Below are positions 35,400-59,445 of a DNA stretch of 64,000 nt, piece by piece. Both the position numbers and the translations under genes were made by a program. Position 1 is the stretch's first letter. Each line of letters starts with the position of its first letter. The stretch lies in assembly GCF_002221505.1 (NCBI RefSeq), contig NZ_CP011036.1, positions 930,001 through 994,000 of the forward strand. Direction: 5' to 3'. Under the pieces are notes generated by a model that saw only the letters and a list, made by a program, of their open reading frames with translations, ran no database searches and was not told the DNA's origin. This stretch comes from Pseudoalteromonas nigrifaciens (GTDB lineage: Bacteria > Pseudomonadota > Gammaproteobacteria > Enterobacterales > Alteromonadaceae).

Positions 35400-35431
35400 A
35401 AAACCCAGTAACTAACGTTGCTGGGTTTTTT
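35400..35431 (+). terminator. Terminator after tRNA-Leu
   Basis: The arms AACCCAG (35402-35408) and CTGGGTT (35421-35427) have a 12-base loop and a T run. It ends the secG/tRNA transcript, so the locus beyond needs its own promoters. Confidence 0.75.
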
Positions 35432-35570: not shown

Positions 35571-35590
35571 CTTGGTCCATTTAAACTATG
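35571..35590 (+). promoter_or_regulatory. Regulon motif, copy 1 (before SDR 35640)
   Basis: CTTGGTCCATTTAAACTATG matches the copy at 46233-46252 at 15 of 20 positions. A -10-like TAAATT lies 9 bases downstream (35600-35605) and the SDR start 50 bp downstream. Spacing to the -10-like element is the same as at 46233. Confidence 0.5.
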
Positions 35591-35639
35591 CCGCAATGCT
35601 AAATTGATGCTAAGTTAAATAAAAAATAGGAGATAATTT

Positions 35640-36437
35640 GTGTCAAAAGTAGCGTTTATTTCAGGTGCAAGTAGAGGTATTGGTCGTGCAACAGCCATCG
35701 CATTTGCAAAAGCAGGCTATCGAGTAGCAATAACAGCTCGTGAATTAGATAGCGAGGTAGCACAGCAAAGTACGCAAGGGAGTTTAAAACAAACAGCCCA
35801 AATGATGGAGCAATTAGGTTGTGAGGTCATTGCGCTAAAAATGGATTTACTTGATTTTAACTCCGTTGCTAGTGCTCTAAAGCAGGTGTTTGAACACTTT
35901 GGTAAAATTGACGTGGTTGTTAATAATGCTATTTATCAGGGGGCTGGCCTTAATGCTTCTTTACTAGATGTAACGCAGCAAACGCTTGAAAAAGTTGCTA
36001 GAGGTTACATAGGCGCGCCAGTGCAAATAGCACAAGCTGTTTTACCAAGTATGTTAGCGCAACAAAGCGGTTGTATAATAAATATAACCTCGGGAGCGGG
36101 TGAAAAAGATCCGCCTATTCCTGCATCTAAAGGGGGCTGGGGTTATGCATACGGTGCAGGTAAGGCTGCAGTGTCGCGACTGTCGGGTATTATTTGCCGT
36201 GAACATGGTCATCAAGGTATTCGCGCTTTTACAGTAAACCCGGGAGTTGTTAACACTGAAACGCTAAGAGCGACTATTGGCGATCAGGGTATTAAAGGCT
36301 TGCAGCAGGCTGTAGCCGAACCGGATGAAATAGGTAATGTATTGTTATGGATTGCAGATAACTCTGCAGCAGATGAGCTGCAGTACAGTACCATCTCCGC
36401 ACAAAAGTTAGCGCGCGAGTTAAACCTACCTAAATAA
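35640..36437 (+). CDS. Short-chain dehydrogenase/reductase (first gene of the locus)
   Basis: This NAD(P)-dependent oxidoreductase of the SDR family has 265 aa. The cofactor loop SGASRGIG is at residues 8-15, NNAIYQG follows, catalytic Ser lies in NITSGAG and Tyr/Lys in YGAGKAA. The substrate is unknown; hydroxysteroid or beta-hydroxyacyl oxidation fits the locus. Start is GTG with AGGAGA six bases upstream. It is the first gene after tRNA-Leu, has its own promoter with a copy of the regulon motif, and is separated from the convergent receptor by a terminator. Confidence 0.85.
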   Translation: MSKVAFISGASRGIGRATAIAFAKAGYRVAITARELDSEVAQQSTQGSLKQTAQMMEQLGCEVIALKMDLLDFNSVASALKQVFEHFGKIDVVVNNAIYQGAGLNASLLDVTQQTLEKVARGYIGAPVQIAQAVLPSMLAQQSGCIINITSGAGEKDPPIPASKGGWGYAYGAGKAAVSRLSGIICREHGHQGIRAFTVNPGVVNTETLRATIGDQGIKGLQQAVAEPDEIGNVLLWIADNSAADELQYSTISAQKLARELNLPK

Positions 36438-36611
36438 TCGAACCTCATATAATCTTGCTGCTTTGTGCTAGGTCAATTAAGCGCAATTACAGCAAGGTTA
36501 TAATTAATATAACTTTATATCCTACCTACCAAATTATGCGTATTAACCCTATCTCAACGATCATTACTGTGCAAATACAGCTGTATTCGTAGCAACAATA
36601 GCAGCACAAAT

Positions 36612-36645
36612 AAAAAGGCCTTAATAAATATTAAGGCCCTTTTTC
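36612..36645. terminator. Terminator between SDR and TonB receptor
   Basis: The stem GGCCTTAAT/ATTAAGGCC (36617-36638) with loop AAAT has five A residues before it and T residues after it. It serves the receptor gene (-) and possibly the SDR (+). Confidence 0.75.
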
Positions 36646-36663
36646 ACTATAATAATTATTTAA

Positions 36664-39021
36664 TTAATACTCAAAACTAACATCTATGCCATAGGTTCTT
36701 GGCGTACCGTATGCCTGCGCATCAAAGAAGTTAAAGTTTGAACCAAATACAATGTACTCTTCATCGGTAATATTTTTCCCCCAAAGCGATACTTTAAGGT
36801 TTGAACGCTCACCTATCTTGATATTAGATAATGTTAGGCGTGCATTGAGTAGCGCATAGTTATCACCCACTAAGCTTGGGTCAGATACAGAAAATTGATA
36901 GTCATCCACCATCACATAGTTTGTATTGAGTGCTAAGTTACCAAAGTCTAATTCGGCTATAGTCCAATTCATTGCAACAGATGCCGAATAAGAGGTGTTG
37001 TCGGTAAATGTAATATCACTGTATTTCGTATCTAAATACCCAAGGCTGGTGGTAAAGAATAGGCTGTCGGTAGCAGCAAATTTAGCATCAATCTCGATCC
37101 CCTTATTTTTCGACTCACCAGTATTAAGTGAACGACGAATACTGCCATCGAAAATGGTTTTTTGTAGGTTAGTGTTATTATTTAAAAATACAGCGGTATT
37201 AAGCATTAAACGGTCATCCAGCAGCATTGCTTTAACACCAACCTCATACGCTGTGGTATCTTCAGGATCGGCAGGTGTTAGTGTTCCTTCATAGTTTGCT
37301 TCGCCCATATTTGCTGGATTAAGATAAGCAAATCGGTCGATAGAACCTGGGTTGTAAACCCCTGCAGCGTACCCTTGTGAGATACTAGCGTACATAGTTA
37401 AATCTTGATCTACTACATAATTAAATAGCAGTGATCCCACTGTTTTTGACCAGTCAGTTTCAGAGTGTAAATCGTTTCTTAACATTGCATCATGCTTTGC
37501 TACGTTAGTCAGAGATTTGGTATCTTTTGTATAGCGTATCCCTGCAACCACATTTAACTCGTCCGTTAATTTATAATCAACATTGGTAAAAAGCGCCGAT
37601 GATTTAGCGTTTACTTTATAAAAGCTACCCCATGGTAGTGAGCCGGTGAATAATACGTTAGCGCCTTGGCCTGTAAAAATACCTATATTCCACGGGTTGT
37701 TTTCTTCACCTTCTTCACTGAAGTAATAATACCCAGCTACGTACTTTAAATCACCTTCTAAAAACTGACCGAGTAGTTGAAATTCTTGTGATTTTTGCTC
37801 TTGTGATTTCACGCTAGTATATTGAAACGCCGGAATAGCAAGCACGTCACTGGTGTCAACACTTGGTGGCGAAGTACTGAAATCTAAAGCTGGAGCAAAA
37901 TAAGCACCGCCATCGGTATCGTAACCTTCGCTTAAATCTGAGTCATAGCTGCGAAATGAGCTAATCGATTTAAAGGTATGGTTGTCAGAAAAATCCCATT
38001 CAAACGTTAAGTTGTGTCCTTCAATATCAACATACTCACGGCCATGTTGATCTAATTCAAACTCGGTTTGACGGCCAGGCGCTTTCTCATTGGCGGCCAT
38101 CATTGCAAATACGTTGCCGGCATAGAGCTTACCCGTAGATAGGTCCATAGTGGGTACATTTGGATCTGTATATTGCGGGCGCACATTGCTAATTTGTACA
38201 GGCATAGCGACTGAACTGCCATCAGTATTGTCATAGCTGTAGTTAACGGTAAAATCATCACCGGTATAACGCAGTGCAACACGCAGTGCATCAACATCTT
38301 CTGCACCTAAGTTTTTTTCTTTTGCACCAGCAAAGGTATTGGTAGCCCAACCATCATGCTCACTGGTCATATACGTAAGTCTGGCGGTAAAATTACCAAT
38401 TGCGCCGGTATCAATTGATGTGGTTGAGCTAAGTAAGCTGTTATTACCTACAGTAACCTTTTGCTTAAATTGAAAGTCATCTGATGGTTTTCTAGTGACT
38501 AAGTTAAGCGCACCACCGGTTGTATTTTTACCCCAAAGTGTACCTTGAGGTCCACGTAGTATTTCCATACGCTCTAAATCAACGATATTAAAAATAGCCC
38601 CAGAGTTACGTGCTAAATAAACGCCATCTAAATAAATACCTACTTTAGGGTCAATCGCTAATGAAGGTTCAGATGTCCCTAGGCCGCGAATATCCATGCC
38701 AACGTTAAAGGTACTACCATATGGAGGAAAAATTTTGACGTTGGGTGCTTGCGCATTAACATCACTGATATCTTCAATACCCAGGTTTTCTATTGCTTCA
38801 GCGTTAAAAGCGGTAATGGCGATAGGCGTTTCTTGTAATGTGCTAATACGTTTTTGGGCTGTTACCGAAACACGCTCAATGCCTTTAACTGCGGTCTGTT
38901 TAGCTTCGGCCTGCTCTGGTTCTTGCGCTGCAAATGCCTGACCAGATACAGCACATGCAATAGCAAACGCTAACGGTTTTATAGTGAGATTTGATGCAAA
39001 CCTATTGTCATTTAAATTCAT
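36664..39021 (-). CDS. TonB-dependent receptor of the catabolic locus
   Basis: This 785-aa outer-membrane active transporter has a signal peptide (MNLNDNRFASNLTIKPLAFA..., cleavage near AFAA). The TonB-box region reads IERVSVTAQKR. The plug shows ETPIAITAFNAE, DIRGLGTSEPSLAIDPKVGI and LRGPQGTLWGKNTTGGALNLV, the pattern of the large subfamily used by proteobacterial degraders of hydrophobic and aromatic compounds. The C-terminal strand ends GIDVSFEY. GAGGAAG precedes the ATG at 39021. It is divergent from the monooxygenase across a 528-bp region holding two candidate regulon sites, so uptake of the locus substrate is a reasonable inference. Confidence 0.88.
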   Translation of the reverse strand: MNLNDNRFASNLTIKPLAFAIACAVSGQAFAAQEPEQAEAKQTAVKGIERVSVTAQKRISTLQETPIAITAFNAEAIENLGIEDISDVNAQAPNVKIFPPYGSTFNVGMDIRGLGTSEPSLAIDPKVGIYLDGVYLARNSGAIFNIVDLERMEILRGPQGTLWGKNTTGGALNLVTRKPSDDFQFKQKVTVGNNSLLSSTTSIDTGAIGNFTARLTYMTSEHDGWATNTFAGAKEKNLGAEDVDALRVALRYTGDDFTVNYSYDNTDGSSVAMPVQISNVRPQYTDPNVPTMDLSTGKLYAGNVFAMMAANEKAPGRQTEFELDQHGREYVDIEGHNLTFEWDFSDNHTFKSISSFRSYDSDLSEGYDTDGGAYFAPALDFSTSPPSVDTSDVLAIPAFQYTSVKSQEQKSQEFQLLGQFLEGDLKYVAGYYYFSEEGEENNPWNIGIFTGQGANVLFTGSLPWGSFYKVNAKSSALFTNVDYKLTDELNVVAGIRYTKDTKSLTNVAKHDAMLRNDLHSETDWSKTVGSLLFNYVVDQDLTMYASISQGYAAGVYNPGSIDRFAYLNPANMGEANYEGTLTPADPEDTTAYEVGVKAMLLDDRLMLNTAVFLNNNTNLQKTIFDGSIRRSLNTGESKNKGIEIDAKFAATDSLFFTTSLGYLDTKYSDITFTDNTSYSASVAMNWTIAELDFGNLALNTNYVMVDDYQFSVSDPSLVGDNYALLNARLTLSNIKIGERSNLKVSLWGKNITDEEYIVFGSNFNFFDAQAYGTPRTYGIDVSFEY

Positions 39022-39549
39022 TACACTTCCTCGATGATTTTTTATATTTATTTCAGCGATAGGCATTCACTAACTACTGCAACCCTCATTGAGTAAAGCT
39101 TATCAAAGAGGAAATGCCTAACCGCTATTTTGTTGTACTTTTTTTACACTGCGGTTTGAAAGTAGCGATAAGTGATCTGTTGAGCATCACGCATTTGGAC
39201 TATGTGTAAATAAGAGGTAAACAAACTGCTGCTTTGGTGTTGTTTTATAAGCGTTATATAAGTTAGTGTCCGTTGCCGTATTTGTTCACTTGAGTTTTAC
39301 ACCCATATTTTAATCCCCTTTCTTTGGTTAAGCTGTTGAATTTAAAGTGATATCACTGAGTTTGGAAATATTGTTCTTTATTATGTGAGTTGCTTAATAG
39401 CGCTGTTAATTATTGCGTGGAATGAGAAGTTTTTTTGCTTAGTCCATATTGACGATGAGAGATAGTGGCTAGTGTGAAAATCTGGTGTTAAGCAAGTTGG
39501 TGAGTTTAACCAGTGCAATTGCGCGCTAATTCTATGAAGGATAACAACC
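39022..39549. promoter_or_regulatory. Divergent control region with regulon motif copies 2 and 3
   Basis: This is a 528-bp gene-free region between the TonB receptor (-) and the monooxygenase (+). CTTAGTCCATATTGACGATG (39438-39457) is, on the minus strand, a 16/20 match to the motif at 46233. CATCACGCATTTGGACTATG (39185-39204) is a weaker 14/20 match nearer the receptor. No ORF was found. One site per direction would allow co-regulation of uptake and the first oxidation step. Confidence 0.5.
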
Positions 39550-40770
39550 ATGAGTGTTCCATATAAAATTGATATTACAGGTATCTCAGATGATTTTCTT
39601 ACACCAGAAGCTAATCGTCTCATCGCAGCGGCAGAGAAGTTGGTTCCTAACTTACTTGAGCGCGCCCAAGCTGCAGAAACTGCTGGTAAAGTACCTGATG
39701 AAACAATAAAAGAAATGATTGCAGCAGGTTTGTTCCGTGTTTTACAACCTAAACGCTGGGGCGGATATGAGCTTGACCCTAGAGTATTTTATATTATTCA
39801 AATGACGCTAGCGCAAGGTTGTATGTCTACCGCTTGGATTTATGGTGTTATTGGCGTACATAACTGGCAAATTGGCTTGTTTGATGAAAGGGCACAAATA
39901 GAAGTACTTGCTGAAAACCCAGAAATATTGATTGCTTCTACTTATATGCCAGTGGGCAAAGTAGAAAAAGTGGAAGGTGGTTTTAACTTTTCAGGCCGTT
40001 GGGGTTTTTCAAGCGGTGTAGAGCACTGTGAATGGATATTTTTAGGTGGCTTAGTGCCTAAATCACCAGGCAGTAAAGAGCTTGAACATAGAACATTCTT
40101 ATTACCTAAATCTGATTTTAAAGTGGTAAAAAACTGGGATGTACTTGGACTACGCGCTTCTGGTAGTCACGATATTGTGGTTGAAGGGGCATTTGTTCCT
40201 GAGTATCGCACCCACCAAACTAATGACTACAGCGACGCAGCTTGTAAAGGGCGCGCGATTAATGATAACTGGTTATACCGTATCCCATTTGTGCAGATAT
40301 TTCAGCGTGCTGTATCTACCGCGTGTATTGGTGCACTGGATGGTGCTGTTACTGAATTTCGTCATCGCTGCGCTGAACATGTGGGTAAACACGGTGGTAA
40401 AACTGCAGAAGACGTGAATGCGCAAATGGCAGTAACCGAAGCAATAATGACCAGCGATCAGTTGAAGTTGGTGTTGTTTCGTAATTTTGCAGAAGTGGTA
40501 AAGCATACTCAAAATGGCGAAATGATGCCAGTTAATGACCGTTTACTACAGCGCGCGCAATCAGCAGCTGTGCCTAAACAGTGTAGTGAAAGAATTAACG
40601 AGATTATGCGCGCTTGTGCAGCGTCGGGAACTTATAAAGGTAATCCGATTGAGCGAATTTTTCGCGATATAAATCAGTCTCGTGGTCATATTGCTAACAA
40701 TACAGATACTTACATGCGTGCACATGGCACTGTAATGCTAGGTTTACCTAACTCAGATCCTTTTGTATAA
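39550..40770 (+). CDS. HsaA-like flavin-dependent monooxygenase (acyl-CoA dehydrogenase fold)
   Basis: This two-component group D flavin monooxygenase oxygenase has 406 aa. By eye it strongly follows HsaA, the 3-HSA hydroxylase of steroid ring A/B degradation. Shared segments include VLQPKRWGGYELDP, STAWIYGVIGVHNWQIGLFDERAQ, SGRWGFSSGVEHCEW and GLRASGSHDIVVEGAFVP. Homologues also hydroxylate other phenols (HpaB-C2 type), so the substrate is inferred. It would need reduced flavin from a separate reductase; no HsaB-type flavin reductase is nearby. It has an AAGGA ribosome site and is first in an operon with the ferredoxin-type reductase, an SDR and an OYE. Confidence 0.82.
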   Translation: MSVPYKIDITGISDDFLTPEANRLIAAAEKLVPNLLERAQAAETAGKVPDETIKEMIAAGLFRVLQPKRWGGYELDPRVFYIIQMTLAQGCMSTAWIYGVIGVHNWQIGLFDERAQIEVLAENPEILIASTYMPVGKVEKVEGGFNFSGRWGFSSGVEHCEWIFLGGLVPKSPGSKELEHRTFLLPKSDFKVVKNWDVLGLRASGSHDIVVEGAFVPEYRTHQTNDYSDAACKGRAINDNWLYRIPFVQIFQRAVSTACIGALDGAVTEFRHRCAEHVGKHGGKTAEDVNAQMAVTEAIMTSDQLKLVLFRNFAEVVKHTQNGEMMPVNDRLLQRAQSAAVPKQCSERINEIMRACAASGTYKGNPIERIFRDINQSRGHIANNTDTYMRAHGTVMLGLPNSDPFV

Positions 40771-40784
40771 GCTAGGGAGTCGCT

Positions 40785-41855
40785 ATGTCTCGTTATCATA
40801 ATTTAACTATTGCTGAAGTAATACAAGAAACCGCTGATGCGAACTCTATTGTATTTGACGTACCAGCATCGTTAACCGAGCAATTTGACTATCAGCCGGG
40901 TCAATTTTTGACCCTTAAACTCCCTTATGAAGGGGCGTTTTTGATGCGTTGTTACTCTATGTCGAGCACGCCAAGCCAAGATACAGGATTACGTGTCACG
41001 GTTAAGCGTGTAGCAGACGGGCGAGGTTCAAACTGGATTTGCGATAATCTTAAAGCGGGTAGCAACATAGAAGTGATGCAACCTGCTGGGCTGTTTGTGC
41101 CAAAAGATTTAGCGGAAGATCATTTGTTATGTGCAGGGGGCAGTGGTGTTACTCCTGTGCTGTCTATTTTGCGACATGTGTTAATTAATGGCACCGGAAA
41201 GGTGCGGGTTATATACGCTAATCGCGATGAAGCCTCGGTTATATTTCAGCAAACATTTAAGGCATTATCGGCGCAGTACCCAGAGCGTCTTGAAGTGATT
41301 CATTTATTAGATTCGTTACAAGGCATTCCTTCATTATCACTGTTAACTTCGTTAGCCGATGGTATGCAACAAGGACGTGCTTTTATTTGTGGCCCTGGGC
41401 CATTTATGGATGCAATGGAATTGGCCGTTAAAGCCGCTAAATTTCCTGCTAGTCGTATCCATATTGAACGCTTTTCTAGTGCAGTGCCAAAAATCACAAC
41501 AAAACCGGTACCAGCCAATTCATTAAAAACACCGATTCAAGACAATATCGCAGAACTTGTTGTTGATGAAGCAAATATGCCAGCGGCAACAATACAGCTT
41601 GAACTTGATGGCGAACATTATGTTATTGCTTGTGAGAGCGGACAAACCGTGCTTGATGCAGCTGAAAAAATAGGTATTGAATTACCCTACTCTTGTCGCG
41701 AGGGCATGTGTGCCTCGTGTATGTGTGAAGTGGTGTCAGGGCAAGTAAAACTTAATAATAATGATGTGCTCGATGAAAAAGATTTAGCAAACAACTTAAC
41801 GCTAAGTTGCCAAGCAGTGCCTTTAACCAGTGAGCTTAAGCTCAAATATACCTAA
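40785..41855 (+). CDS. KshB/PaaE-type FAD, NAD(P)H and 2Fe-2S oxidoreductase
   Basis: This electron-transfer protein has 356 aa and domain order FAD-binding barrel (RCYSMSSTP, about 48-56), NAD-binding (CAGGSGVTPVLS, about 111-122) and C-terminal plant-type ferredoxin. Cluster ligands are Cys304, Cys309, Cys312 and Cys342 (CREGMCASC...LSCQA). KshB feeds Rieske 9alpha-hydroxylases and PaaE the phenylacetyl-CoA epoxidase. Here no Rieske or PaaABC partner is in view; it follows the HsaA-like gene by 14 bp, so it either serves an oxygenase elsewhere or an unusual pairing. Confidence 0.85.
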   Translation: MSRYHNLTIAEVIQETADANSIVFDVPASLTEQFDYQPGQFLTLKLPYEGAFLMRCYSMSSTPSQDTGLRVTVKRVADGRGSNWICDNLKAGSNIEVMQPAGLFVPKDLAEDHLLCAGGSGVTPVLSILRHVLINGTGKVRVIYANRDEASVIFQQTFKALSAQYPERLEVIHLLDSLQGIPSLSLLTSLADGMQQGRAFICGPGPFMDAMELAVKAAKFPASRIHIERFSSAVPKITTKPVPANSLKTPIQDNIAELVVDEANMPAATIQLELDGEHYVIACESGQTVLDAAEKIGIELPYSCREGMCASCMCEVVSGQVKLNNNDVLDEKDLANNLTLSCQAVPLTSELKLKYT

Positions 41856-41945
41856 CACTTAATATTAATATCAGTAACGCAACGCGTTATCACTCATTCA
41901 CTCAGTGCAACATTGTTTGCACGTTTCCGATATAAGGAATTTCTC

Positions 41946-42716: not shown

Positions 42717-42725
42717 GGACATTGT

Positions 42726-43793: not shown

Positions 43794-43804
43794 TAAAGTA
43801 CTGT

Positions 43805-43845
43805 TATTGAGTGTTGCAACATAATATGTGCTGCAACACTCAATA
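43805..43845 (+). terminator. Long hairpin at the end of the monooxygenase operon
   Basis: Perfect 14-base arms TATTGAGTGTTGCA and TGCAACACTCAATA enclose a smaller ACAT/ATGT stem. No T tract follows, so it may end transcription with Rho or protect the mRNA 3' end instead of acting as a classic intrinsic terminator. Confidence 0.5.
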
Positions 43846-44080
43846 GCTTCATTTCATCATTTGTCATAGTTTTCATACAATAAACTTAATCGTTAAAATA
43901 GATTAATATTACTTTAATTAGACTAAATGATAATCAAAGAGTCACTTGCAAACCTTGCTAATAACGGTGATAGTGGAGTAAGTGAAATATTAAATAGCAG
44001 TATAAATTAATAATATAGCATGCTTATTTTTTTGTTTTATTTTCAAGTTTTAATCAAAAAAAATAACTATAGGTTGAAAA

Positions 44081-45241
44081 ATGGCACAATTAGATATAAG
44101 TCTCGATGCATATAATGAATTAATAAATGCATTATATGAAGCGTCGGCAGATACCAGTTCTTCAAGTTGGAATATCCCTCTAAAGCTAATCCAAAGCATA
44201 CTTCAAGCAAACTATGTCACCTTAATATTAAAAGTTCCCGAGGAAGACGATTTAGGATTAATGATCGCAGTAGGTGAAGGTTTAGAAGAAGGGGACACCG
44301 TTCAGCATTTACCCTATCAATATAAATTAACCCCTTTTGCTGATCAACCACTTGATACAGTGTTAACTGTTGCGGATTTTATGGATGAAAACGAATGGAA
44401 AAATTCATCATATAGAGAACACTGGTGCGAAAAAAATAACATTTACCATGTACTCACTGCCGATATTAGCACTCCTAATGTTGGTCATTTAAGGTTTAGG
44501 GTTACGCGAACCGATGCACAAGAAGATTTTTCTCAAGCTGATAAAGCGTTTGTAGAGTTACTTATCCCGCATTTTAGACGCGCAATTACTACTTTTTTAC
44601 AGCTTTATAGTAGTGCCTCTTTAGGCTCGTTATATTCTCGTGCTATTGGTCGTTTGTCTATTGCTACTATTACTATTGATGAGCATGGCAAAGTACTCGA
44701 TAAAAACGTATTTGCTAGCCATATACTCGACGCCGAAGACGGGCTTAAAATAATTGGTGGTAAACTAACCGCGCAAGATAACAGTGATAATCGCGAGTTA
44801 AAACGCTTAATTAAAGCAACGTTTGCTAATGCTGATGGCAAGCAAACTATGCCAGAGGCAATGTCGATTACTCGTCCATCAGGCGAAATAGCTCTTGGTG
44901 TAGTAATTGAAGTTATTCCCTCATTAGGTTGGGCTGAAGGTAAAGGGCAAAACAAGGCCGTAATTTACATTCGCGATGCGGTAGGTAAATCGACCACCAG
45001 TATTGAAATATCGAAAAAGCTATTTGGTTTAACGCCGGCAGAAACTGCGCTATCACTGCAGTTAACTAATGGTTTATCGTTAGAAGAAGCTGCTGAAGAG
45101 CTAAATATTCGCCGTAACACAGCGCGTGCTCACTTACGTTCTATATTTTCTAAAACCGGTGTACGCAGGCAAACAGAGTTAGTTAGATTGTTTTTAAATA
45201 GTGTCGCTGCGCTGGGCTACGACGACAGAAATAGCTTGTAA
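44081..45241 (+). CDS. LuxR-family transcriptional regulator
   Basis: This 386-aa protein has a C-terminal LuxR/FixJ helix-turn-helix (about 322-380: LFGLTPAETALSLQLTNGLS, then NIRRNTARAHLRSIFSKTG). The N-terminal 200 residues look like a GAF/PAS-type sensor, and a second PAS-like stretch spans about 185-300 (ATITIDEHGKVLDKNVFASH). No receiver Asp motif or autoinducer domain is recognised. It is the only regulator in the visible locus, so it is the first candidate to bind the shared promoter motif (inference). Its own 287-bp upstream region has only a weak motif-like stretch. It is monocistronic. Confidence 0.82.
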   Translation: MAQLDISLDAYNELINALYEASADTSSSSWNIPLKLIQSILQANYVTLILKVPEEDDLGLMIAVGEGLEEGDTVQHLPYQYKLTPFADQPLDTVLTVADFMDENEWKNSSYREHWCEKNNIYHVLTADISTPNVGHLRFRVTRTDAQEDFSQADKAFVELLIPHFRRAITTFLQLYSSASLGSLYSRAIGRLSIATITIDEHGKVLDKNVFASHILDAEDGLKIIGGKLTAQDNSDNRELKRLIKATFANADGKQTMPEAMSITRPSGEIALGVVIEVIPSLGWAEGKGQNKAVIYIRDAVGKSTTSIEISKKLFGLTPAETALSLQLTNGLSLEEAAEELNIRRNTARAHLRSIFSKTGVRRQTELVRLFLNSVAALGYDDRNSL

Positions 45242-45291
45242 ACTTTATTACAAACGATTCCTGCCTTACCTTAAAGTAAAAATAAGTAGGC

Positions 45292-45317
45292 AAAAAAAAG
45301 CCAGCTAAATGCTGGCT
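45292..45317 (-). terminator. Terminator of the enoyl-CoA hydratase gene
   Basis: The stem AGCCAGC/GCTGGCT with loop TAAAT (45299-45317) has eight A residues at 45292-45299, giving a T run on the minus strand. It also separates the convergent luxR-type gene. Confidence 0.75.
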
Positions 45318-45367
45318 AAAATTAACAAAGGGGAGTGTTAATTAATTTAAATTAATGACTATTACCC

Positions 45368-46153
45368 TTACTTTCCGCTAAATACAGGATGGCGTTTTTG
45401 TAAAAACGCCTCCATACCTTCACGTTGATCTTTTGATGCAAATAATAACGCATTTGCTTTGCGCTCCAGCGCCATAGCACTGGCAAGTGGAGCGTCCATT
45501 CCTGCTAAAATAACTTCTTTTATTTGCTCTGCCGCTAGCGGAGGCATACGTGCTATGCGACGACAATTTGCTAGTGCCTGTTTATATACATCGTCATCTT
45601 CGCACAGCTCACTTACCAGTCCGCCTACCCAAGCATCGTAAGCACTAATAGGCTTACCTGTAAGCGCCATTTGCATTGCTTTAGCTTTACCTACTGCACG
45701 TACTAAACGCTGCGTGCCACCAATACCTGGCATAATGCCAATGGCTATTTCGGGCTGACAAAAACTTGCGCCTTTACCGGCAATAATAATGTCGGCCAAC
45801 ATGGCCAGTTCACAGCCACCGCCATACGCGTAGCCATTTACTGCAGCAACTACAGGAATTGGGCATTGCTCAATAGGTGCCCATAGGCGTTCTGTATGGC
45901 GCTGGTAAATCTCAATTGGGTCTGCATCTATTAAGCTAGTAATGTCGCCGCCTGCAGCAAATACTTTGTCGCCACCGGTTAATAAAATACAGCGAATGTC
46001 TTTATTGTTTGCCAGCTCAGTAAAGTACTTAGATAGTAATGTTTGCAGCTCTAAGCTTAATGCATTGGTGGCACTGGGTCGGTTTAACGTTAACTCGGCC
46101 ACGCCAGGCTCAGGGAAACTTAGTAAAACGCTAGGCTCGTTTGTATCTGTCAT
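45368..46153 (-). CDS. Enoyl-CoA hydratase/isomerase (crotonase family)
   Basis: This 261-aa crotonase-fold protein has both hydratase glutamates: Glu115 in GGGCELAM and Glu135 in FCQPEIAIGIMPG. The oxyanion-hole segment KVFAAGGDITSL is also present. It probably hydrates a 2-enoyl-CoA in side-chain or ring-derived acyl-CoA degradation. GGAG precedes the ATG. It is divergent from the SDR 46315 operon, with regulon motif copy 4 between them. Confidence 0.88.
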   Translation of the reverse strand: MTDTNEPSVLLSFPEPGVAELTLNRPSATNALSLELQTLLSKYFTELANNKDIRCILLTGGDKVFAAGGDITSLIDADPIEIYQRHTERLWAPIEQCPIPVVAAVNGYAYGGGCELAMLADIIIAGKGASFCQPEIAIGIMPGIGGTQRLVRAVGKAKAMQMALTGKPISAYDAWVGGLVSELCEDDDVYKQALANCRRIARMPPLAAEQIKEVILAGMDAPLASAMALERKANALLFASKDQREGMEAFLQKRHPVFSGK

Positions 46154-46232
46154 TCAATACTCCAAAACATTGCTAGGCAACGTACAGTAAAATTTCTATG
46201 TTGTTATTGTCACTTGTTGTCGCTAAACACAG

Positions 46233-46252
46233 CATCGTCCATTTAGACGAAG
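46233..46252. promoter_or_regulatory. Regulon motif, copy 4 (best copy)
   Basis: CATCGTCCATTTAGACGAAG contains inverted arms TCGTC/GACGA around a 6-base centre. A -10-like TAATAC lies 9 bases downstream (46262-46267), so a 17-bp spacer would put the -35 inside the motif. It sits between the divergent crotonase (start 80 bp left) and SDR (start 62 bp right). Confidence 0.6.
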
Positions 46253-46314
46253 CTGGTTATCTAATACTGCCTGTACACTGTTTTTATGGAATTATTTTAT
46301 GACAAGGCTTAATT

Positions 46315-47097: not shown

Positions 47098-47152
47098 ATA
47101 ATTAATAATTTTAATTTTTAGAATTTATCTTGATAAATGCAGGAGACGAACA

Positions 47153-49663: not shown

Positions 49664-49680
49664 AATTTAGGAGAGACAAG

Positions 49681-50856: not shown

Positions 50857-50865
50857 GAGTGCAAA

Positions 50866-52035: not shown

Positions 52036-52049
52036 CAGGAGATAACAGC

Positions 52050-53249
52050 ATGAGTGAGTTAACTGAATTTCGCCAGCAGGTTCGTACTTGGCTAGAGGCA
52101 AATTGTCCTATGTCGCTGCGCACCCCAACGCCTGATGGCGAGCTCATTTGGAGCGGGAGTGAGGTTAACTTCACTTTTGATGATCAACGCCAGTGGTTTA
52201 ATAGCATGCGCGACAAACATTGGTTTTGTCCTAGTTGGCCAACGCAGTACGGTGGTGGTGCTTTAACTGCGCAGCAAAACAGCGTATTAGAAAGTGAAAT
52301 GCGCCGTTTAAAGTGTCGCCCGCCACAAATTAATTTAGGTATTTGGATGTTAGGTCCTGTGCTGTTAGAGCACGGAACTGAGCTGCAAAAACAACAGTTT
52401 TTAACACCAATGACTCGCGGTGAAGTACGTTGGTGCCAAGGGTTTAGTGAGCCAAACGCCGGCTCTGATTTGGCCAGTATTCGTACCAGCGCCATTGATC
52501 AAGGCGATCATTACTTAGTTAATGGTAGTAAAATTTGGACTTCTTACGGTGACAAATCCGATTGGATGTACGCATTAGTACGCACTGATGCTAAAGCCCC
52601 TAAACACCAAGGCATTAGCTTATTACTCCTCGATATGCACAGCCAAGGTGTGCAAGCCAAACCTATTGATTTAATTAGCGGTAAATCTTCTTTTTGTGAA
52701 GTGTTTTTCGATAATGTAGTCGTACCCAAAGAAAATCTTATAGGTGAGCTCAATGGCGGCTGGAAATTGGCTAAAGAATTGCTGCAACACGAACGCAGCG
52801 CAATGTCTAAGTTTGGTGAGTTTCAATTACCCACGCACTTTGACTTAATGTCACTAATGAGTGATTACATGCCAGCGCCACACAGCGCTAGTGAAGCCGC
52901 GCTTCTAAATAAGGCGGTTGCAGCCAATATGGAAGAGCAGGCATACAACTTAACGGTGCAACGCTTAGGTGCAGAAATGCAAGCGGGGCAAAGCTGTTTT
53001 GGTTTAATGTCGATTATGAAGTTAGTGCATACCGAACAAGAAAAAATTAAATTTGAATTATTACTCGATGCAATGGGTTACCGAGGTTTAGGTTGGGAAG
53101 ATGATAGCTTTAGCGAGCAAGAGCAAGCAATTACTCGCGCTTGGCTAAATAGTTTTTCGCAAACCATAGCTGGCGGATCCTCAGAAGTTCAGCTGAACGT
53201 GATAGCAAAGCGTGTATTGCAATTACCTGAAAATAAAGGAGTAAGCTGA
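52050..53249 (+). CDS. Acyl-CoA dehydrogenase, beta-type (second)
   Basis: This 399-aa protein has flavin motifs GFSEPNAGSDLAS (about 132) and IWTSYGDKSDW, but no R-x-QFG or HGG motif. C-terminal IAGGSSEVQLNVIAKRVLQL is the usual tail. It is paired with the 53249 gene by a 1-bp overlap (TGATG), so these two likely form the second heteromeric dehydrogenase, perhaps for another desaturation cycle of the side chain. Confidence 0.83.
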   Translation: MSELTEFRQQVRTWLEANCPMSLRTPTPDGELIWSGSEVNFTFDDQRQWFNSMRDKHWFCPSWPTQYGGGALTAQQNSVLESEMRRLKCRPPQINLGIWMLGPVLLEHGTELQKQQFLTPMTRGEVRWCQGFSEPNAGSDLASIRTSAIDQGDHYLVNGSKIWTSYGDKSDWMYALVRTDAKAPKHQGISLLLLDMHSQGVQAKPIDLISGKSSFCEVFFDNVVVPKENLIGELNGGWKLAKELLQHERSAMSKFGEFQLPTHFDLMSLMSDYMPAPHSASEAALLNKAVAANMEEQAYNLTVQRLGAEMQAGQSCFGLMSIMKLVHTEQEKIKFELLLDAMGYRGLGWEDDSFSEQEQAITRAWLNSFSQTIAGGSSEVQLNVIAKRVLQLPENKGVS

Positions 53250-54361
53250 TGAGTATGGTATATAGCGAAGACGATCGCATGTTGGCAGATACCGCCGAAG
53301 AGTTTTTAAGTGCGCAAAGCCCTGTCGCAGCGCAGCGCGCATTACGCGATAAGCCAACCGCAGTTAATTTTGATGAAAAAATTTGGCAACAAATGCTGGA
53401 ACTAGGTTGGGGAGCAATTACTTTTCCCGAAGAGCTGGGTGGCCTAGATTTTGGTTATAAAGGAATGGGCGCAATATTTGAAGCTATGGGTAAACACCTG
53501 AGTGCTTCGCCAATGTTATCGTCGGTAACCCTGTGTGGTTCATTATTACAACAACTAGCCAACGCAGAACAGCAAACCTGGTTAACAGCAATAATGAGTG
53601 GTGAAAAACGCTTAGCCTTAGCGGTTGACGAACACGCAAGGCACGATCCCGACAGCATGCAAACAACGGCAACAACAGCGGTAGATGGCTTTGTGTTAAA
53701 TGGTAAAAAAACCATGGTTATTGATGGTGTCAGCCCCGATGGTTGGATAGTTGCGGCGCAGCATAACGCTGGCTGTAGTGTGTTTATTGTGCCATTTAGT
53801 GAGCAAGTAAAGGTTAAGCGCCTTAACCTTATCGATGCACGCAATTACGCCGAGCTTACTTTTAATGACTTAAAACTACCCGCAGAAGCCTTATTAGGCG
53901 ATGCTGGCAATAGCTTAAAAGCACTGCAACAAGCACTCGATTTAGGTCGTTTATGTTTAAGTGCTGAAATGCTTGGTGCTATTAAAGCGCTGTTTGATAT
54001 GACTATAGAATACTTAAAGGTACGTGAACAATTTGGTGTAAAAATTGGTACTTTTCAGGCATTACAACATCGTGCGGCACGCTGTTATGTAGAATTAGAA
54101 TTAGCTCAATCTTGTGTTATAGCCGCACTTTCGGATGCAGATAAGGCTGACGCAAATTTAGCCTCAAGCGCTAGTTTAGCTAAATGGAAACTATCAAAAG
54201 TAGCCGATTTAATCAGCGGTGAAGCGGTGCAAATGCATGGCGGCATTGGGGTTACTGATGAGCTAGACATTGGTCTTTACCTAAAGCGCATTCGCGTAGC
54301 ACAAATGTGCCTTGGTGATGCCGATTACCATCAAGCGCGGTTTGCAGCTTTAGCGCCTTAA
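53249..54361 (+). CDS. Acyl-CoA dehydrogenase, alpha-type (second)
   Basis: This 370-aa protein has the C-terminal flavin motifs VREQFGVKIGTFQALQ (about 260) and QMHGGIGVTDE (about 330). The SEPxAGSD stretch is replaced by ALAVDEHARHDPD and no WTS motif is seen. It complements the 52050 subunit; the 1-bp start/stop overlap supports equal synthesis. It is the last gene of the operon, ending at a strong terminator. Confidence 0.83.
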   Translation: MSMVYSEDDRMLADTAEEFLSAQSPVAAQRALRDKPTAVNFDEKIWQQMLELGWGAITFPEELGGLDFGYKGMGAIFEAMGKHLSASPMLSSVTLCGSLLQQLANAEQQTWLTAIMSGEKRLALAVDEHARHDPDSMQTTATTAVDGFVLNGKKTMVIDGVSPDGWIVAAQHNAGCSVFIVPFSEQVKVKRLNLIDARNYAELTFNDLKLPAEALLGDAGNSLKALQQALDLGRLCLSAEMLGAIKALFDMTIEYLKVREQFGVKIGTFQALQHRAARCYVELELAQSCVIAALSDADKADANLASSASLAKWKLSKVADLISGEAVQMHGGIGVTDELDIGLYLKRIRVAQMCLGDADYHQARFAALAP

Positions 54362-54382
54362 AACTCATCTTGAGTTAAACAT

Positions 54383-54425
54383 AAAAAAACCAGCCAACAG
54401 TTATTCACTGCTGGCTGGTTTTTTT
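54383..54425. terminator. Terminator ending the side-chain operon
   Basis: The stem ACCAGCC/GGCTGGT (54389-54419) has seven A residues before it and seven T residues after it. It works for both the operon (+) and the convergent SDR (-). Confidence 0.8.
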
Positions 54426-54463
54426 CATGCGCTGAGAGCCTTAATGCGCGTTGAAGGTCGCTA

Positions 54464-55252
54464 TTACTGTGCTGGCGCGCCAGGTACACCATAATAATAT
54501 TGACCAGCCGTTAGGCCGCCATCTACCACCATTTCGGTGCCATTACAGTAAGATGCCTGATCCGAGACTAAAAAGTTAACCATATTGGCTACTTCTTCAG
54601 GCTGACAACCACGTTGCTGTGGAATAAATTTATAGCGTGGGTTCAGCTCTTCGCTACTTAGCCCCTGTGGGTTAGTCATGGGGGTATTTACAGCACCAGG
54701 ATGCACACTATTTACACGTATACCAAACGGGCCTAGCTCAAGCGCTGCGGTGCGAGTTAACCCTCTTACTGCATATTTACTTGCAGCATACGCACCTGTG
54801 CCATTGTTAGGTAAAATAGACGAGGCTGATGAAATATTAACAATAGCGCCACTGCCGGCTTTTTTCATGCAGGGGATCACGCTATGTAAGCCTAAAAAGG
54901 TGCCGGTAATATTAATATCGATTAATTTACGAAACTGCTGCGGCTCTGTGGTTTCGAGCGTTGCGAACAGTAAAATCCCCGCATTATTAACTAAAATATC
55001 TATTTTTTGGTGCTTTTCTAAAGTTGCTGATACGATCGACTGCCATTGTAGCTCATCGGTTACATCGTGTGTCATTGGCGTAACCTTGTCGCCAAGCTCT
55101 TGCGCCATTTGGTTAAGCTCTTCAGTTAAAATATCAGTGGCTATAACAGTGGCTCCAGAGTCAACCAGTGCTTGGCATATTGCTCTACCGATACCCCGTG
55201 CGGCACCGGTAACTAAGGCGACTTTATTGGTTAAATGTGTAGCGTTTTTCAT
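54464..55252 (-). CDS. Short-chain dehydrogenase/reductase
   Basis: This 262-aa classical SDR has TGAARGIG at about 15-22, NNAGIL, Ser in NISSASSIL, and Tyr/Lys in YAASKYAVRG. The C-terminus VVDGGLTAGQYYYGVPG is aromatic-rich. By appearance it is like 3alpha/20beta-hydroxysteroid dehydrogenases, but many SDRs share this. It lies downstream of the OYE/FAD reductase gene, separated by a hairpin, so it may have its own promoter in the 153-bp gap. Confidence 0.85.
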   Translation of the reverse strand: MKNATHLTNKVALVTGAARGIGRAICQALVDSGATVIATDILTEELNQMAQELGDKVTPMTHDVTDELQWQSIVSATLEKHQKIDILVNNAGILLFATLETTEPQQFRKLIDINITGTFLGLHSVIPCMKKAGSGAIVNISSASSILPNNGTGAYAASKYAVRGLTRTAALELGPFGIRVNSVHPGAVNTPMTNPQGLSSEELNPRYKFIPQQRGCQPEEVANMVNFLVSDQASYCNGTEMVVDGGLTAGQYYYGVPGAPAQ

Positions 55253-55344
55253 TGTTAGTTTCTCGCTTTAAAATAGTTGTAAGTATTATTGCTGAGGTTC
55301 TTGCTGAGCCATAAAAAGGCAGCAGCTTTAATTATGGTAATAAA

Positions 55345-55364
55345 ATAGGGGCGAGTGCCCCTAT
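55345..55364 (-). terminator. Hairpin terminator after the OYE/FAD reductase
   Basis: ATAGGGGC/GCCCCTAT with loop GAGT forms a perfect 8-bp stem, followed on the minus strand by TTTT. It lies 41 bp past the 55406 stop. Three tandem GTTAGTA copies (55374-55394) lie beside it. Confidence 0.6.
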
Positions 55365-55405
55365 GTTAAAAGTGTTAGTAGTTAGTAGTTAGTAATTAGT
55401 CGCTA

Positions 55406-57526
55406 TTAGCAGCTTAAGCCAGCTCTATAACCGGCACTAATTGCACCCTCTATATAGGCAACGTCATTACAATCACCAATATCTTTTACTGTATGGCCAG
55501 CTGCAATTAAGCTGTTTGTTAAGCTATTATCAGTGGTAATACCCGTTGCCATTACTACGGTATCGGCAAGGCAGCTGCGGGGTTGCTCGTCCACTTTATA
55601 GTGCACAGCGTAGGTATCGATAGCGGTAACGTCTGCCTGAGTAATTAAAGTAACGCCTAATTGCCTAACATGATCAAGTACCCGCCAGCGCCTAACAATA
55701 CTCAGCTCGATGCCTAAGTTACGTCCGGCTTCTATAACGGTCACTTCGCGGCCACGCTCAGCTAAAAACTCGGCCAGCTCTAAGCCCACTAAGCCACCGC
55801 CAACAATAGTGACGCGCTTGCCAAGTGGCATCCATAAATGCGATAAGCGTTGTAATTTATCTACGTGTTTTGTTAAGCCCAGGGTGTTGCCCGCTCCTAA
55901 CATTAAGCGCTGTAGCGCGGTTAGCTTATTGCTAGTGTTAGTACTTACTTCGCCGGTAAGTAACTGTCTAAGTTGTTCGCCAGACCAAACGTGGCTTAAC
56001 TCACAACCCTGTATATCGGGCATGCCACGGCTGGCGCCGGTTGCTACAAATACTTCATCGGCATTTAGTGTGCTAATTAATTTCGGAGTCGCTGTGGTAT
56101 TCAGTTTTACTGTAACCTTAGATTGGGCTAGTTGCCTTAAATGGTAGTCGAGTAACTTGCCATTTTCGGGATAGGCCAGCGCTGCAAAAAATAATGTGCC
56201 GCCTAAGCGTTTACTGCGCTCTAACAAGGTTACTTTATGGCCTCGTTCACTGGCGGTTACAGCAGCTTCTATGCCAGCAGGCCCGCCACCAATTACCACA
56301 ATATGTTTGGGCTTATCGGTCATTATTACTTTTAGTTCAAATTCTTTACCAGTCGCGGCATTAACCGCACATTTAACGCGCTGATTAATAAATACTTGGC
56401 TTACGCATACATAGCAATAAATACAGGGACGAATGTCGGCTTCACGATCTGCGGTGAGTTTATTTGGTAGTTCGGGATCGGCTAATAATTTACGTCCCAT
56501 TGCAATAAAATCACACTTACCGCTGGCAATAGCAGCATCGGCAATATCGGGCTCTAAGCGGCCAACGGCAATTACCGGTATAGACACTTCTTTCTTCACT
56601 GCCGCAGCCCAATCTAAAAAGCCTGCTGGTTTATGCACTAGCGGCGCGGCGGTAAATGCAGAGCCTGTGGTTAAGGTGGCATAAGCAGAAATACTAACGG
56701 CATTTACACCCGCTTGTTCAACCATTTTGCTCACTGCAATACAGTCCTCAAGGGTAATACCGCCAGGGGTGTTGAGTTCGTGCGCATCTAGGCGTACCCA
56801 CAATGGAAAATCTTGGCCTACGCGTTCGCGTATTGCCGCTATTACCTCGAGTAGTAAACGTGCGCGGTTTTCAATACTGCCGCCATATTCGTCATCACGT
56901 TTATTATAATAGCTCGATAAAAAGCCAGCCAAAATATACGAGTGCGCGCTGTGCAGCTCAATAGCATCAAAACCCGCTTGCTGAGCACGTTTTGCCGCTG
57001 CGGCAAACCATTCGACCATTTGGACAATATCGGCTTTTTCCATTACTTTTATGGTAACGGGTTTATCTGCTGGAGGTCTAACAAAGGTACTTAATTCTGT
57101 TGGTGTTACCGCTTGCATAATATCGCTTTGTGGTGGCGCAGGGGGCAGTGAAGGAACCCAAAGCTCGCGGCCTTCGGCTAAATCGCGTACTGCCGTTTTA
57201 CCAGCATGCTGTAATTGCACCGCAATTTTTGCACCATGCTTATGCACCCGCTCGGTAAGTGCTTTTAATCCAGGAATAAACTCATCTTTAGAAATACCCA
57301 CCTGATAAGGTTCGGCAGTGCCTGCGGGAAACGCAATAGCAATAGATCCCATAGTAATAAGGCCCACACCGCCTTTTGCTCTGGCTTCATAAAAAGCTTG
57401 AATACGCTCACTACAATGGCCATCAGGGTCAGCATAATTAGAGCCCATTGGCGCCATCATAATGCGGTTACGCAGCGTTAGTCCGCCTACTTTCCCTGGT
57501 TTAAGCAAGTGCTGATAATGTGACAT
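55406..57526 (-). CDS. OYE-FAD two-domain enoate reductase (FadH/BaiCD-like)
   Basis: This 706-aa flavoprotein has an N-terminal FMN TIM barrel (MMAPMGSNYADPDG, AVQLQHAGKTAV, ELHSAHSYILAGFLSSYYNK with His-x-x-His), an Fe-S motif, then FAD (VIGGGPAGIEAA) and NAD(P) (TIVGGGLVGLELAEFLAERG) Rossmann domains. Cluster ligands are Cys368, Cys371, Cys374 and Cys386, spaced C-x2-C-x2-C-x11-C, nearer to trimethylamine dehydrogenase than FadH (C-x2-C-x3-C). Relatives include 2,4-dienoyl-CoA reductase and the bile-acid enzymes BaiCD/BaiH. Steroid enone or dienone reduction is a contextual guess. It is co-transcribed with the hydrolase 42 bp upstream. Confidence 0.86.
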   Translation of the reverse strand: MSHYQHLLKPGKVGGLTLRNRIMMAPMGSNYADPDGHCSERIQAFYEARAKGGVGLITMGSIAIAFPAGTAEPYQVGISKDEFIPGLKALTERVHKHGAKIAVQLQHAGKTAVRDLAEGRELWVPSLPPAPPQSDIMQAVTPTELSTFVRPPADKPVTIKVMEKADIVQMVEWFAAAAKRAQQAGFDAIELHSAHSYILAGFLSSYYNKRDDEYGGSIENRARLLLEVIAAIRERVGQDFPLWVRLDAHELNTPGGITLEDCIAVSKMVEQAGVNAVSISAYATLTTGSAFTAAPLVHKPAGFLDWAAAVKKEVSIPVIAVGRLEPDIADAAIASGKCDFIAMGRKLLADPELPNKLTADREADIRPCIYCYVCVSQVFINQRVKCAVNAATGKEFELKVIMTDKPKHIVVIGGGPAGIEAAVTASERGHKVTLLERSKRLGGTLFFAALAYPENGKLLDYHLRQLAQSKVTVKLNTTATPKLISTLNADEVFVATGASRGMPDIQGCELSHVWSGEQLRQLLTGEVSTNTSNKLTALQRLMLGAGNTLGLTKHVDKLQRLSHLWMPLGKRVTIVGGGLVGLELAEFLAERGREVTVIEAGRNLGIELSIVRRWRVLDHVRQLGVTLITQADVTAIDTYAVHYKVDEQPRSCLADTVVMATGITTDNSLTNSLIAAGHTVKDIGDCNDVAYIEGAISAGYRAGLSC

Positions 57527-57568
57527 AGATTATTACCTCTTATTATTTATGTTTTTTGAGGTGCTGTA

Positions 57569-58423
57569 TTAGCCGTGTTGTAAAAAATCAATACAGCTGC
57601 TGTTAAACAGGCGTTGATGTTCTACTTGTACCCAATGACCACAACGATTAAGCATAATAAAGCGCGCTGTTGGTACGTTATCCAAAATTTTATGCATGCC
57701 TTGATGTGGATTAAATTTATCGTTAGTGCCCCAAAAGCCAAGCACTGGGCAGTTAAGCTCGCCAAGGCGTTCGGTCATGTTTGGCACCATCATAGTGCTA
57801 AATAAATTAGCCGGTTGAGTAACTGCCACTGCAGCGCGCTCTGCTAATATATCATCAGAAAGTACAGCTGAATCAAAAAGTTGTAACGACATTACTTCGC
57901 GCATTTGATCAACACCCATAGGGCCACGGCTGTATACTTCTACCATACGCACTATACCTTCCATTTGAAAATACGTTTCGCGCTCTTCAACACCACCCGG
58001 AGCCATTAAAATTAGGCGCTCTACCGTATCGGGATAATCGAGAGCTTGCCCCAGCGCAATAGCACCGCCTAAAGAATTGCCTAATAAAGTCACCTTAGGT
58101 AAATCAAGGGCGTTTATAAAACCATTAAGTGCTGTGACAAAAAAAGCTAAATCGTAATTAACGTCATCGGGTTTATCTGAGCGACCAAAACCAGGTAAGT
58201 CGAGCACAATATTACGATAGCCCGCATCAGCAAATTCAGGATAATTGCCTTTAAAGTTACTAAAACCACTGGCACCTGGGCCACTACCATGAAGCCAAAT
58301 AACAATAGGGCCTTGGCCTTGCTCTAAATAATGTAATTTAAGGCCGTTTTCTAGGGTAACAAAGTGTCCCAGTGGTAACGGTAAATCCTGTGCTTTCTCT
58401 GGATTAGTTGTTTGCTGATTCAA
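57569..58423 (-). CDS. Meta-cleavage-product-type alpha/beta hydrolase (HsaD/BphD/MhpC-like)
   Basis: This C-C bond hydrolase-like protein has 284 aa. Oxyanion-loop WLHGSGPGASGFSNF, nucleophile Ser117 in GNSLGG, Asp235 in WGTNDKFNP and His263 in CGHWVQVEH form the triad, and these motifs are those of HsaD/BphD hydrolases. In steroid breakdown HsaD splits the ring-cleaved 4,9-DSHA. Start: TTG at 58423 has AGGAG eight bases upstream; a GTG at 58474 would add 17 residues with a poorer site. No extradiol dioxygenase gene, the usual partner, is in the window. Regulon motif copies 5 and 6 lie upstream. Confidence 0.83.
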   Translation of the reverse strand: MNQQTTNPEKAQDLPLPLGHFVTLENGLKLHYLEQGQGPIVIWLHGSGPGASGFSNFKGNYPEFADAGYRNIVLDLPGFGRSDKPDDVNYDLAFFVTALNGFINALDLPKVTLLGNSLGGAIALGQALDYPDTVERLILMAPGGVEERETYFQMEGIVRMVEVYSRGPMGVDQMREVMSLQLFDSAVLSDDILAERAAVAVTQPANLFSTMMVPNMTERLGELNCPVLGFWGTNDKFNPHQGMHKILDNVPTARFIMLNRCGHWVQVEHQRLFNSSCIDFLQHG

Positions 58424-58530
58424 AACTCTTACTCCTAATTTTGCCTTGCTAACAAGGTAATGAACGCTCACCACCTCTGCTTATTTATATAATTTTCCTA
58501 CTCAATACTGCGTTGCTCGTTTGCTTAAAA

Positions 58531-58550
58531 CATCGTCCATTTAGACCAGT
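58531..58550. promoter_or_regulatory. Regulon motif, copy 5
   Basis: CATCGTCCATTTAGACCAGT is identical to the 46233 copy over its first 16 bases. It lies 107 bp before the hydrolase start (-). Confidence 0.6.
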
Positions 58551-58565
58551 GTTTTGTTTGTGTTG

Positions 58566-58585
58566 GTTAGTCTTATTGGACGATG
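58566..58585. promoter_or_regulatory. Regulon motif, copy 6 (inverted relative to copy 5)
   Basis: On the minus strand this reads CATCGTCCAATAAGACTAAC, a 16/20 match to the 46233 copy. On the plus strand a -10-like TATTAC follows after 8 bases (58594-58599), facing the SDR at 58694. Copies 5 and 6 point at each other 15 bp apart in this divergent region. Confidence 0.6.
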
Positions 58586-58693
58586 CTGGTTTTTATTACA
58601 TATCCCAGTATGAATTGGAAAATTAATATTGGTGCGACTGCAAATGTTGCTCTATATACGCCAAATTGGCTTGAGAAAAGCAAGGGGATAAAA

Positions 58694-59437: not shown

Positions 59438-59445
59438 GAGTGAAT

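Follow-up and report, generated by a model that had tools for sequence, protein, structure and literature searches.

The window, that is, the whole stretch of 64,000 nucleotides analyzed here (C1:930001-994000 of the Pseudoalteromonas nigrifaciens genome, 4.27 Mb in three contigs), carries core genes on its left and, from about 35 kb onward, a locus for steroid catabolism. This locus contains the SDR gene SDR1, a TonB-dependent receptor gene, an HsaA-type monooxygenase operon, the gene of a LuxR-type regulator starting at 44081, a crotonase gene diverging from an SDR3/side-chain operon, and a hydrolase/OYE operon diverging from an SDR5/SnoaL/ligase/thiolase operon; HsaA-type, ChsH2, Ltp2-type thiolase and ACAD genes are the neighbours of the regulator gene. 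An initial annotation had described six copies of a partly palindromic 20-bp motif in the promoter regions of this locus, joined the genes behind them into one regulon and suspected the 44081 product of binding there. We describe this dyad, its distribution and the evidence that it is probably the operator (TesR box) of the 44081 regulator, here called TesR.

All six 20-mers lie on exactly the coordinates and strands first given for them. They have the dyad CWTNGTC-N6-GACNAWG in common, which two copies (39438 and 46233) fit without mismatch and which, with about 20 bp, has the length of a LuxR-type operator. Their identity to the 46233 copy, put at 14-17 of 20 positions, was recounted as 15, 14, 16, 20, 17 and 16 of 20. 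When up to two mismatches were allowed, CWTNGTCNNNNNNGACNAWG gave 12 matches in the window versus 4.18 expected, a number reached in none of 100 shuffles; these matches include five of the six copies, the 39185 copy requiring three mismatches. With a symmetric matrix, the six copies are the six top-scoring window positions (scores 19.0-26.8). If each copy was left out in turn, at most six other window positions outranked it, five of which can be the remaining copies. The highest score left of 35 kb, where no copy had been noticed, is 12.8 (at 19122).

The six copies formed the training set of the first matrix, so that the independent matches in this genome are restricted to one site next to the window and those of a second steroid locus. 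The former, a seventh copy at C1:994233, is located 233 bases past the window end; the gene of an HsaC-type extradiol dioxygenase lies 58 bases further on. The second locus (2.54-2.563 Mb) is unlinked, 1.6 Mb away, and has intergenic copies at 2544228, 2550996, 2551181 and 2563260. Of the intergenic regions concerned, one separates a metallo-beta-lactamase-type (MBL) gene and a CasG-like ligase gene from an MFS gene and KshA, another separates an aldehyde dehydrogenase (AldDH) gene from an operon of the HsaB-E-G-F type, and a third is located ahead of an SDR/MaoC pair. At a threshold of 14, five matches were obtained here versus 0.25 in shuffles. A further match within the CasG-like gene (C1:2541700, score 16.2) is not claimed as a site. 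A strict pattern, CATCGTCHAWNNRGACNA, which recovers 44 of 71 known sites, matches six times in the entire 4.27-Mb genome, every time in one of the two steroid loci. A survey reports that, in Pseudoalteromonas haloplanktis, the genes for the A/B rings and those for the C/D rings form separate clusters (PMC4810484). As a separate observation, a PaaE-like ferredoxin reductase gene (40785-41855) lies behind the HsaA-type oxygenase gene of the window, and an HsaB-like flavin reductase gene is present at the second locus (L019:16259-17239).

Full-length orthologues of the 44081 product were detected in G021 (119 relatives searched), in G238 (order sample of 394 genomes), in 11 other genomes of a family sample of 395 and in two of 118 genomes of the genus of G238. 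G021 is near-identical to the P. nigrifaciens genome and was excluded from the site set, the spacing statistics and the upstream-site counts; the related genomes are not independent of each other. In 14 other genomes (802,678 bases), the six-copy matrix found 71 matches scoring at least 14, of which 65 are intergenic, intergenic DNA making up 12.5% of the bases; shuffled sequences gave a mean of 4.75 and a maximum of 10. Genes were called by script as longest open reading frames (ORFs), a crude procedure for GC-rich DNA: in ten named loci treated below, 5/12 matches were scored as intergenic by these calls. A site is located upstream of SDR3 in 14/14 homologues, HsaB in 9/9, MFS in 7/7, crotonase in 13/14, hydrolase in 11/12, HsaA in 16/20, TonB in 7/10 and AldDH in 6/9. 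Sites are found at operon heads, and operon-internal genes are almost without any; in five genomes the reductase gene is apart from HsaA and has its own site there. The degenerate box before the TonB receptor gene recurs unchanged in G591 (4519840) and near-identically in G021 (949125).

The link to the regulator gene was assessed with the strict pattern in 77 whole genomes. In the 16 genomes with TesR, 95 matches were counted (2-8 each), in the 60 genomes without an orthologue eight (at most one each), and one in G717, which has HsaA and no TesR; the reversed pattern matched 15 times over all 77. Thus, the sites track the presence of the regulator gene, as the suspicion about the 44081 product would have it. 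In the family sample of 395, HsaA occurs in 13 genomes, 12 of which carry TesR, a count that assumes both draws of 395 genomes to be identical, while G717 was tested directly. G717 retains a remnant cluster (L139): in the 80 kb fetched, HsaA and SDR1 are present along with two TonB receptor genes, TesR, HsaC and KshA are absent, and two boxes (C42:121439 and 131686) have matrix scores of 15.3 and 19.6. As a natural experiment on HsaA without TesR, G717 was set aside for this reason.

Beyond the closer relatives, the box recurs in Vibrio, Pseudomonas, Thauera and Comamonas-type betaproteobacteria. For the betaproteobacteria, the named loci and the promoter spacing, a second matrix was built from 71 intergenic gammaproteobacterial sites scoring at least 15, a set that differs from the 71 matches above. 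The set of betaproteobacterial type comprises 14 regions around TesR homologues (35-44% identity), taken from G1130, the eight other hits of a 200-genome family sample and three plasmid records. It contains 43 sites scoring at least 16, with at least one site in 12/14 regions, where permuted matrices let 0.48 be expected. These sites precede HsaC and SDR_B and also lie within the AldDH|MFS and HsaA|HsaB divergons; in G1215, where TesR shares 83% identity with TeiR of Comamonas testosteroni, boxes were found upstream of HsaC and within both divergons. Ten named loci of Thauera, Serpens and Pseudomonas carry a site scoring at least 14 in nine cases with a GC-corrected matrix and in eight with the six-copy matrix. 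Three Sphingobium plasmids encode a regulator about 31% identical to TesR, those of TomTYG (L173, L204) among steroid-type genes. One site was found in L173 (14716, within a divergon that includes an annotated KshA gene), two in L204 (one intergenic, at 27600, and one intragenic) and none in L203, which is weak evidence for an alphaproteobacterial extension of the box.

Separately, the 176-kb plasmid pVa1 of Vibrio alfacsensis (L161, NZ_CP032095.1) was seen to carry a cluster of steroid catabolism genes that includes TesR and has boxes; a 2016 survey reports steroid degradation genes to be absent from 186 marine Vibrio genomes (PMC4810484). Autoregulation was considered as a general rule for TesR and rejected, as 0/25 homologues have a site of at least 14 upstream. 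In the window, a weak dyad-like sequence upstream of the regulator gene (43888-43907, score about 10) is probably a chance match. On plasmids of Caballeronia, Cupriavidus and Burkholderia (L162:19813, L163:19783, L172:19797), a box is found 169-199 bases before the TesR-type gene, an arrangement which suggests that the regulator may control its own gene there.

In promoters aligned on the dyad and read in the direction of the gene, an A at +22 and a T at +26 stood out as the clearest additional signal, as expected of a -10 hexamer starting at offset 21. The pattern nAnnnT occurs at this offset in 57% of 127 gammaproteobacterial site-gene pairs versus a median of 9.4% over all offsets, a further 30% having it at offset 22 with partial overlap, and in 80% of 45 betaproteobacterial pairs versus a median of 2.2%. 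All four gammaproteobacterial subsets have their optimum at offset 21, by a narrow margin in the P. nigrifaciens genome, and averaging per gene returns this offset with z of 6.1 and 7.1. The -10 hexamers proposed initially do exist, at offsets of 10, 10 and 9, but the conserved -10 element is located at 21-22; offset 10 was rejected as a general rule, since nAnnnT is present there in 13% of gammaproteobacterial and 0% of betaproteobacterial pairs. If the -10 element is placed at -12 to -7, the dyad would extend from -52 to -33, with its centre at -42.5. An overlap with the -35 region, as originally supposed, is thus still predicted, in that the dyad would abut and partly cover the -35 position. 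In class II promoters, the lux box is centred at -42.5 and adjoins the -35 region. The dyads of this study lie at a constant distance from the -10 element and, by prediction, near -42.5. Coordinates of all sites are compiled in Table 1.

Table 1. Copies of the putative TesR box, predicted -10 elements and the regulator gene in the window (window coordinates).
Feature	Position	Strand	Remarks
Putative TesR box, SDR1 (35640-36437)	35571..35590	+	CTTGGTCCATTTAAACTATG, GTG start 49 bases on
Predicted -10 of SDR1, TAAGTT	35611..35616	+	offset 21 from dyad
Predicted -10 of TonB receptor, TACTTT	39159..39164	-	offset 21; TACTTT in G591 too
Putative TesR box, one half degenerate, TonB-dependent receptor (36664-39066, minus)	39185..39204	-	118 bases upstream
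Putative TesR box, HsaA-type monooxygenase operon (from 39550)	39438..39457	+	perfect dyad, 92 bases upstream
Predicted -10 of HsaA operon, AAATCT	39478..39483	+	offset 21
TesR-type LuxR-family regulator, 386 aa	44081..45241	+	Pfam GerE; 44% identity over 377 aa to TeiR Q6URL0
Predicted -10 of crotonase, GACAAT	46206..46211	-	offset 22, opposite side of the 46233 dyad
Putative TesR box, divergent crotonase (45368-46153, minus) and SDR3/side-chain operon (from 46315)	46233..46252	+	perfect dyad
Predicted -10 of SDR3 operon, TACACT	46274..46279	+	offset 22
Predicted -10 of hydrolase operon, CAGTAT	58505..58510	-	offset 21
Putative TesR box, hydrolase/OYE operon (57569-58474, 55406-57526, 54464-55252, minus)	58531..58550	+	56 bases upstream of hydrolase ORF
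Putative TesR box, SDR5/SnoaL/ligase/thiolase operon (58694-63181 and beyond)	58566..58585	-	CAGTAT at offset 21, gene side
Predicted -10 of SDR5 operon, CAGTAT	58606..58611	+	offset 21

Two arrangements of divergent promoters are found in the window. At 46233, both promoters have their -10 element at offset 22 from one dyad, and at 58531/58566 a pair of back-to-back dyads provides one for each promoter. The longest SDR5 ORF starts within the dyad (58583-58694 region); the ATG at 58694, which is in frame and preceded by AAGGGG, is the likelier start. A terminator-like hairpin (35400-35431; AAAACCCAG ... CTGGGTTTTTT) was observed at the left edge of the catabolic locus, after the core genes.

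Over 377 aa, the 44081 product and TeiR of C. testosteroni (Q6URL0, P0136) share 44% identity; their helix-turn-helix (HTH) domains are near-identical, and this domain is almost invariant among 30 homologues. The GerE match of the 44081 product reaches 26.1 bits (cutoff 23.5). Similarity to TeiR over the full length, a GerE HTH and a gene position within steroid catabolism genes come together in this protein. N-terminal to the HTH, GAF-like and PAS-like parts are tentatively recognized in the structure model; this reading is tentative because the GAF/PAS-type matches of the fold search are loose, with low TM-score and large root-mean-square deviation. In TeiR, PAS matches fall slightly under the Pfam cutoff. 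No kinase family match was obtained with Pfam in TesR, TeiR or P0123, the most hydrophobic 19-residue stretch of TesR has a mean of 1.32, and a sequence search of PDB with the TesR alignment gave no match. For C. testosteroni, the literature describes tesR/teiR as a positive regulator (PMC6895838, PMC13101464) and reports it to be required for the induction of tesB-tesR, tesA1-tesG and tesA2-ORF18 (PMC6895838). Among testosterone degraders, tesR-like genes are said to be confined to C. testosteroni (PMC6895838); the putative orthologues collected here speak against this.

Based on these results, we consider the motif to be a TesR-box operator for class II activation by the 44081 TesR-type regulator at both steroid loci, with a probability of roughly 0.85, judged from sequence. 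The dyad, its positions, the -10 spacing, the conservation and the co-occurrence with the regulator gene are read directly from the genomes. The idea of one regulon held up, given a strict pattern confined to the two steroid loci and sites conserved at orthologous loci, and the matrix scan proposed in the initial annotation, now run on this and related genomes, yielded new copies near steroid genes. We infer the following mechanism. A dimer of the C-terminal GerE HTH would bind the GTC-N6-GAC dyad with its flanks. The dyad, at about -52 to -33, would replace the -35 element and be followed twenty bases beyond by a weak nAnnnT -10 element. The N-terminal sensor part would detect a steroid or a breakdown product as inducer, and the bound dimer would then recruit RNA polymerase in class II fashion, so that the steroid operons at both loci would be activated rather than repressed. 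A single dyad could serve two divergent promoters (46233), and back-to-back dyads one each (58531/58566).

Several points weigh against this interpretation. At the second locus, permuted matrices average 0.5 matches but reach a maximum of 5, equal to the number observed, and in the 14 genomes the column-permuted control averages 4.19 with a maximum of 35; these maxima are high because some permutations retain much of the core. The loose palindrome is not enriched in the P. nigrifaciens genome, with 28 positions versus 47 for the reversed control at one mismatch, of which seven of the 28 fall in the two steroid loci, and 271 versus 346 at three mismatches. It is too unspecific, and the matrix and the strict pattern were therefore used instead. 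Since the loci were mostly fetched via TesR, the proximity of sites and regulator is partly due to selection; the whole-genome contrast between genomes with and without TesR is the fairer test. Sites are lacking upstream of 3/10 HsaC and 11/16 SDR1 homologues (present in 7/10 and 5/16, respectively), and none was found in the regions L060, L203, G1130_b and G1338b, which have a TesR-type gene. The -10 element at offset 21-22 fits in only 2/6 gammaproteobacterial AldDH promoters, in about a third of those of MBL and SDR1, and, in betaproteobacteria, in 0/2 of HsaB and 0/2 of the OYE-reductase. The TesR structure model is of modest confidence (predicted local distance difference test 71.7, predicted TM-score 0.47). 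Finally, TeiR is described in the literature as a polar, membrane-associated kinase (PMC6678751, PMC8399759).

The latter description is also an argument for an improbable alternative, in which another regulator would use the dyad as its operator and TesR, as a sensor or kinase, would act further upstream and not at the promoters. An AraC-type gene in the second locus would offer a candidate. However, the box and the TesR gene are found together when whole genomes are compared, neither TesR, TeiR nor P0123 has a kinase family match, and no other DNA-binding regulator was detected by Pfam among the ORFs given for 29122-63181. An AraC homologue is present in only six of the fetched regions, and AraC proteins are stated to bind usually direct repeats (PMC12882949). 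Much less credible still is a TesR that sits on the dyad as a steroid-released repressor blocking the -35 region. The dyad does extend to the -35 position, and a LuxR-type repressor of 3,17beta-hydroxysteroid dehydrogenase is reported in C. testosteroni (PMC6678751, PMC8700777), but the constant 20-base gap to the -10 element and the poor match of the latter's first T suit an activator-dependent class II promoter, and the reports on tesR/teiR cited above describe a positive regulator. That the copies arose by chance or as recent promoter duplications without function, which the missing enrichment of the loose palindrome could suggest, hardly merits belief, given conservation across classes and fixed -10 spacing, and duplication was rejected, the flanks being dissimilar (ungapped identity in 12 promoters of this genome 0.30 on average, at most 0.43, versus 0.66 in the motif).

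Several known systems resemble the proposed TesR box and its regulator. One is TesR/TeiR of C. testosteroni, which is alike in sequence, including the HTH, and in the location of its gene within a steroid cluster; it differs in being described as a polar kinase, for which our analysis gave no domain support. No operator sequence of TesR/TeiR was found in the literature searched, whose coverage excluded most subscription papers, so that a report elsewhere is possible. Class II LuxR-type promoters with a lux box share the 20-bp dyad, the GerE-type HTH and the predicted centre at -42.5; they differ in the half-site, which here has a GTC-N6-GAC core, and in the sensor, which here is tentatively GAF/PAS-like instead of an autoinducer domain. 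As in the KstR/KstR2 regulons of actinobacterial steroid catabolism, one operator type would here coordinate many steroid operons. The KstR proteins, unlike the LuxR-type protein here, are described as TetR-type repressors (PMC8399759, PMC4810484), and no TetR match was found among the ORFs scanned from 29122 to 63181, the second locus and the right flank having been scanned in part. The EdcR operator of Caenibius tardaugens is likewise a palindrome common to steroid-related promoters, in this case of oestrogen genes, but it is given as TnnCnnTACnAnTnGTAnnGnnA, overlaps the -10 element and binds a repressor (PMC8700777); the dyad differs from it in core and position. Elements of this kind, LuxR-type boxes in class II promoters, are known; the present member, together with its regulon and spread, appears to be undescribed in the literature searched.

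In bile-acid-degrading Proteobacteria, regulation is described as largely unknown (PMC8399759). We lean, with some reserve, toward a broader view in which one ancestral TesR box would govern aerobic steroid catabolism in gamma- and betaproteobacteria, with possible traces on alphaproteobacterial Sphingobium plasmids. The box would have been kept despite deep divergence of the regulator and would travel with the operons, e.g., on the Vibrio plasmid, and TesR would be a soluble one-component sensor acting directly at the operons, replacing the membrane-kinase model of TeiR. With a defined operator and a fixed promoter geometry, the control of steroid breakdown would become directly testable by a simple binding assay. 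The box may further serve as a tool to scan genomes for steroid operons, split and plasmid-borne clusters included, and as a source of promoter parts for steroid or bile-acid biosensors. Its distribution suggests joint movement of the pathway and the signal that controls it between distantly related bacteria.

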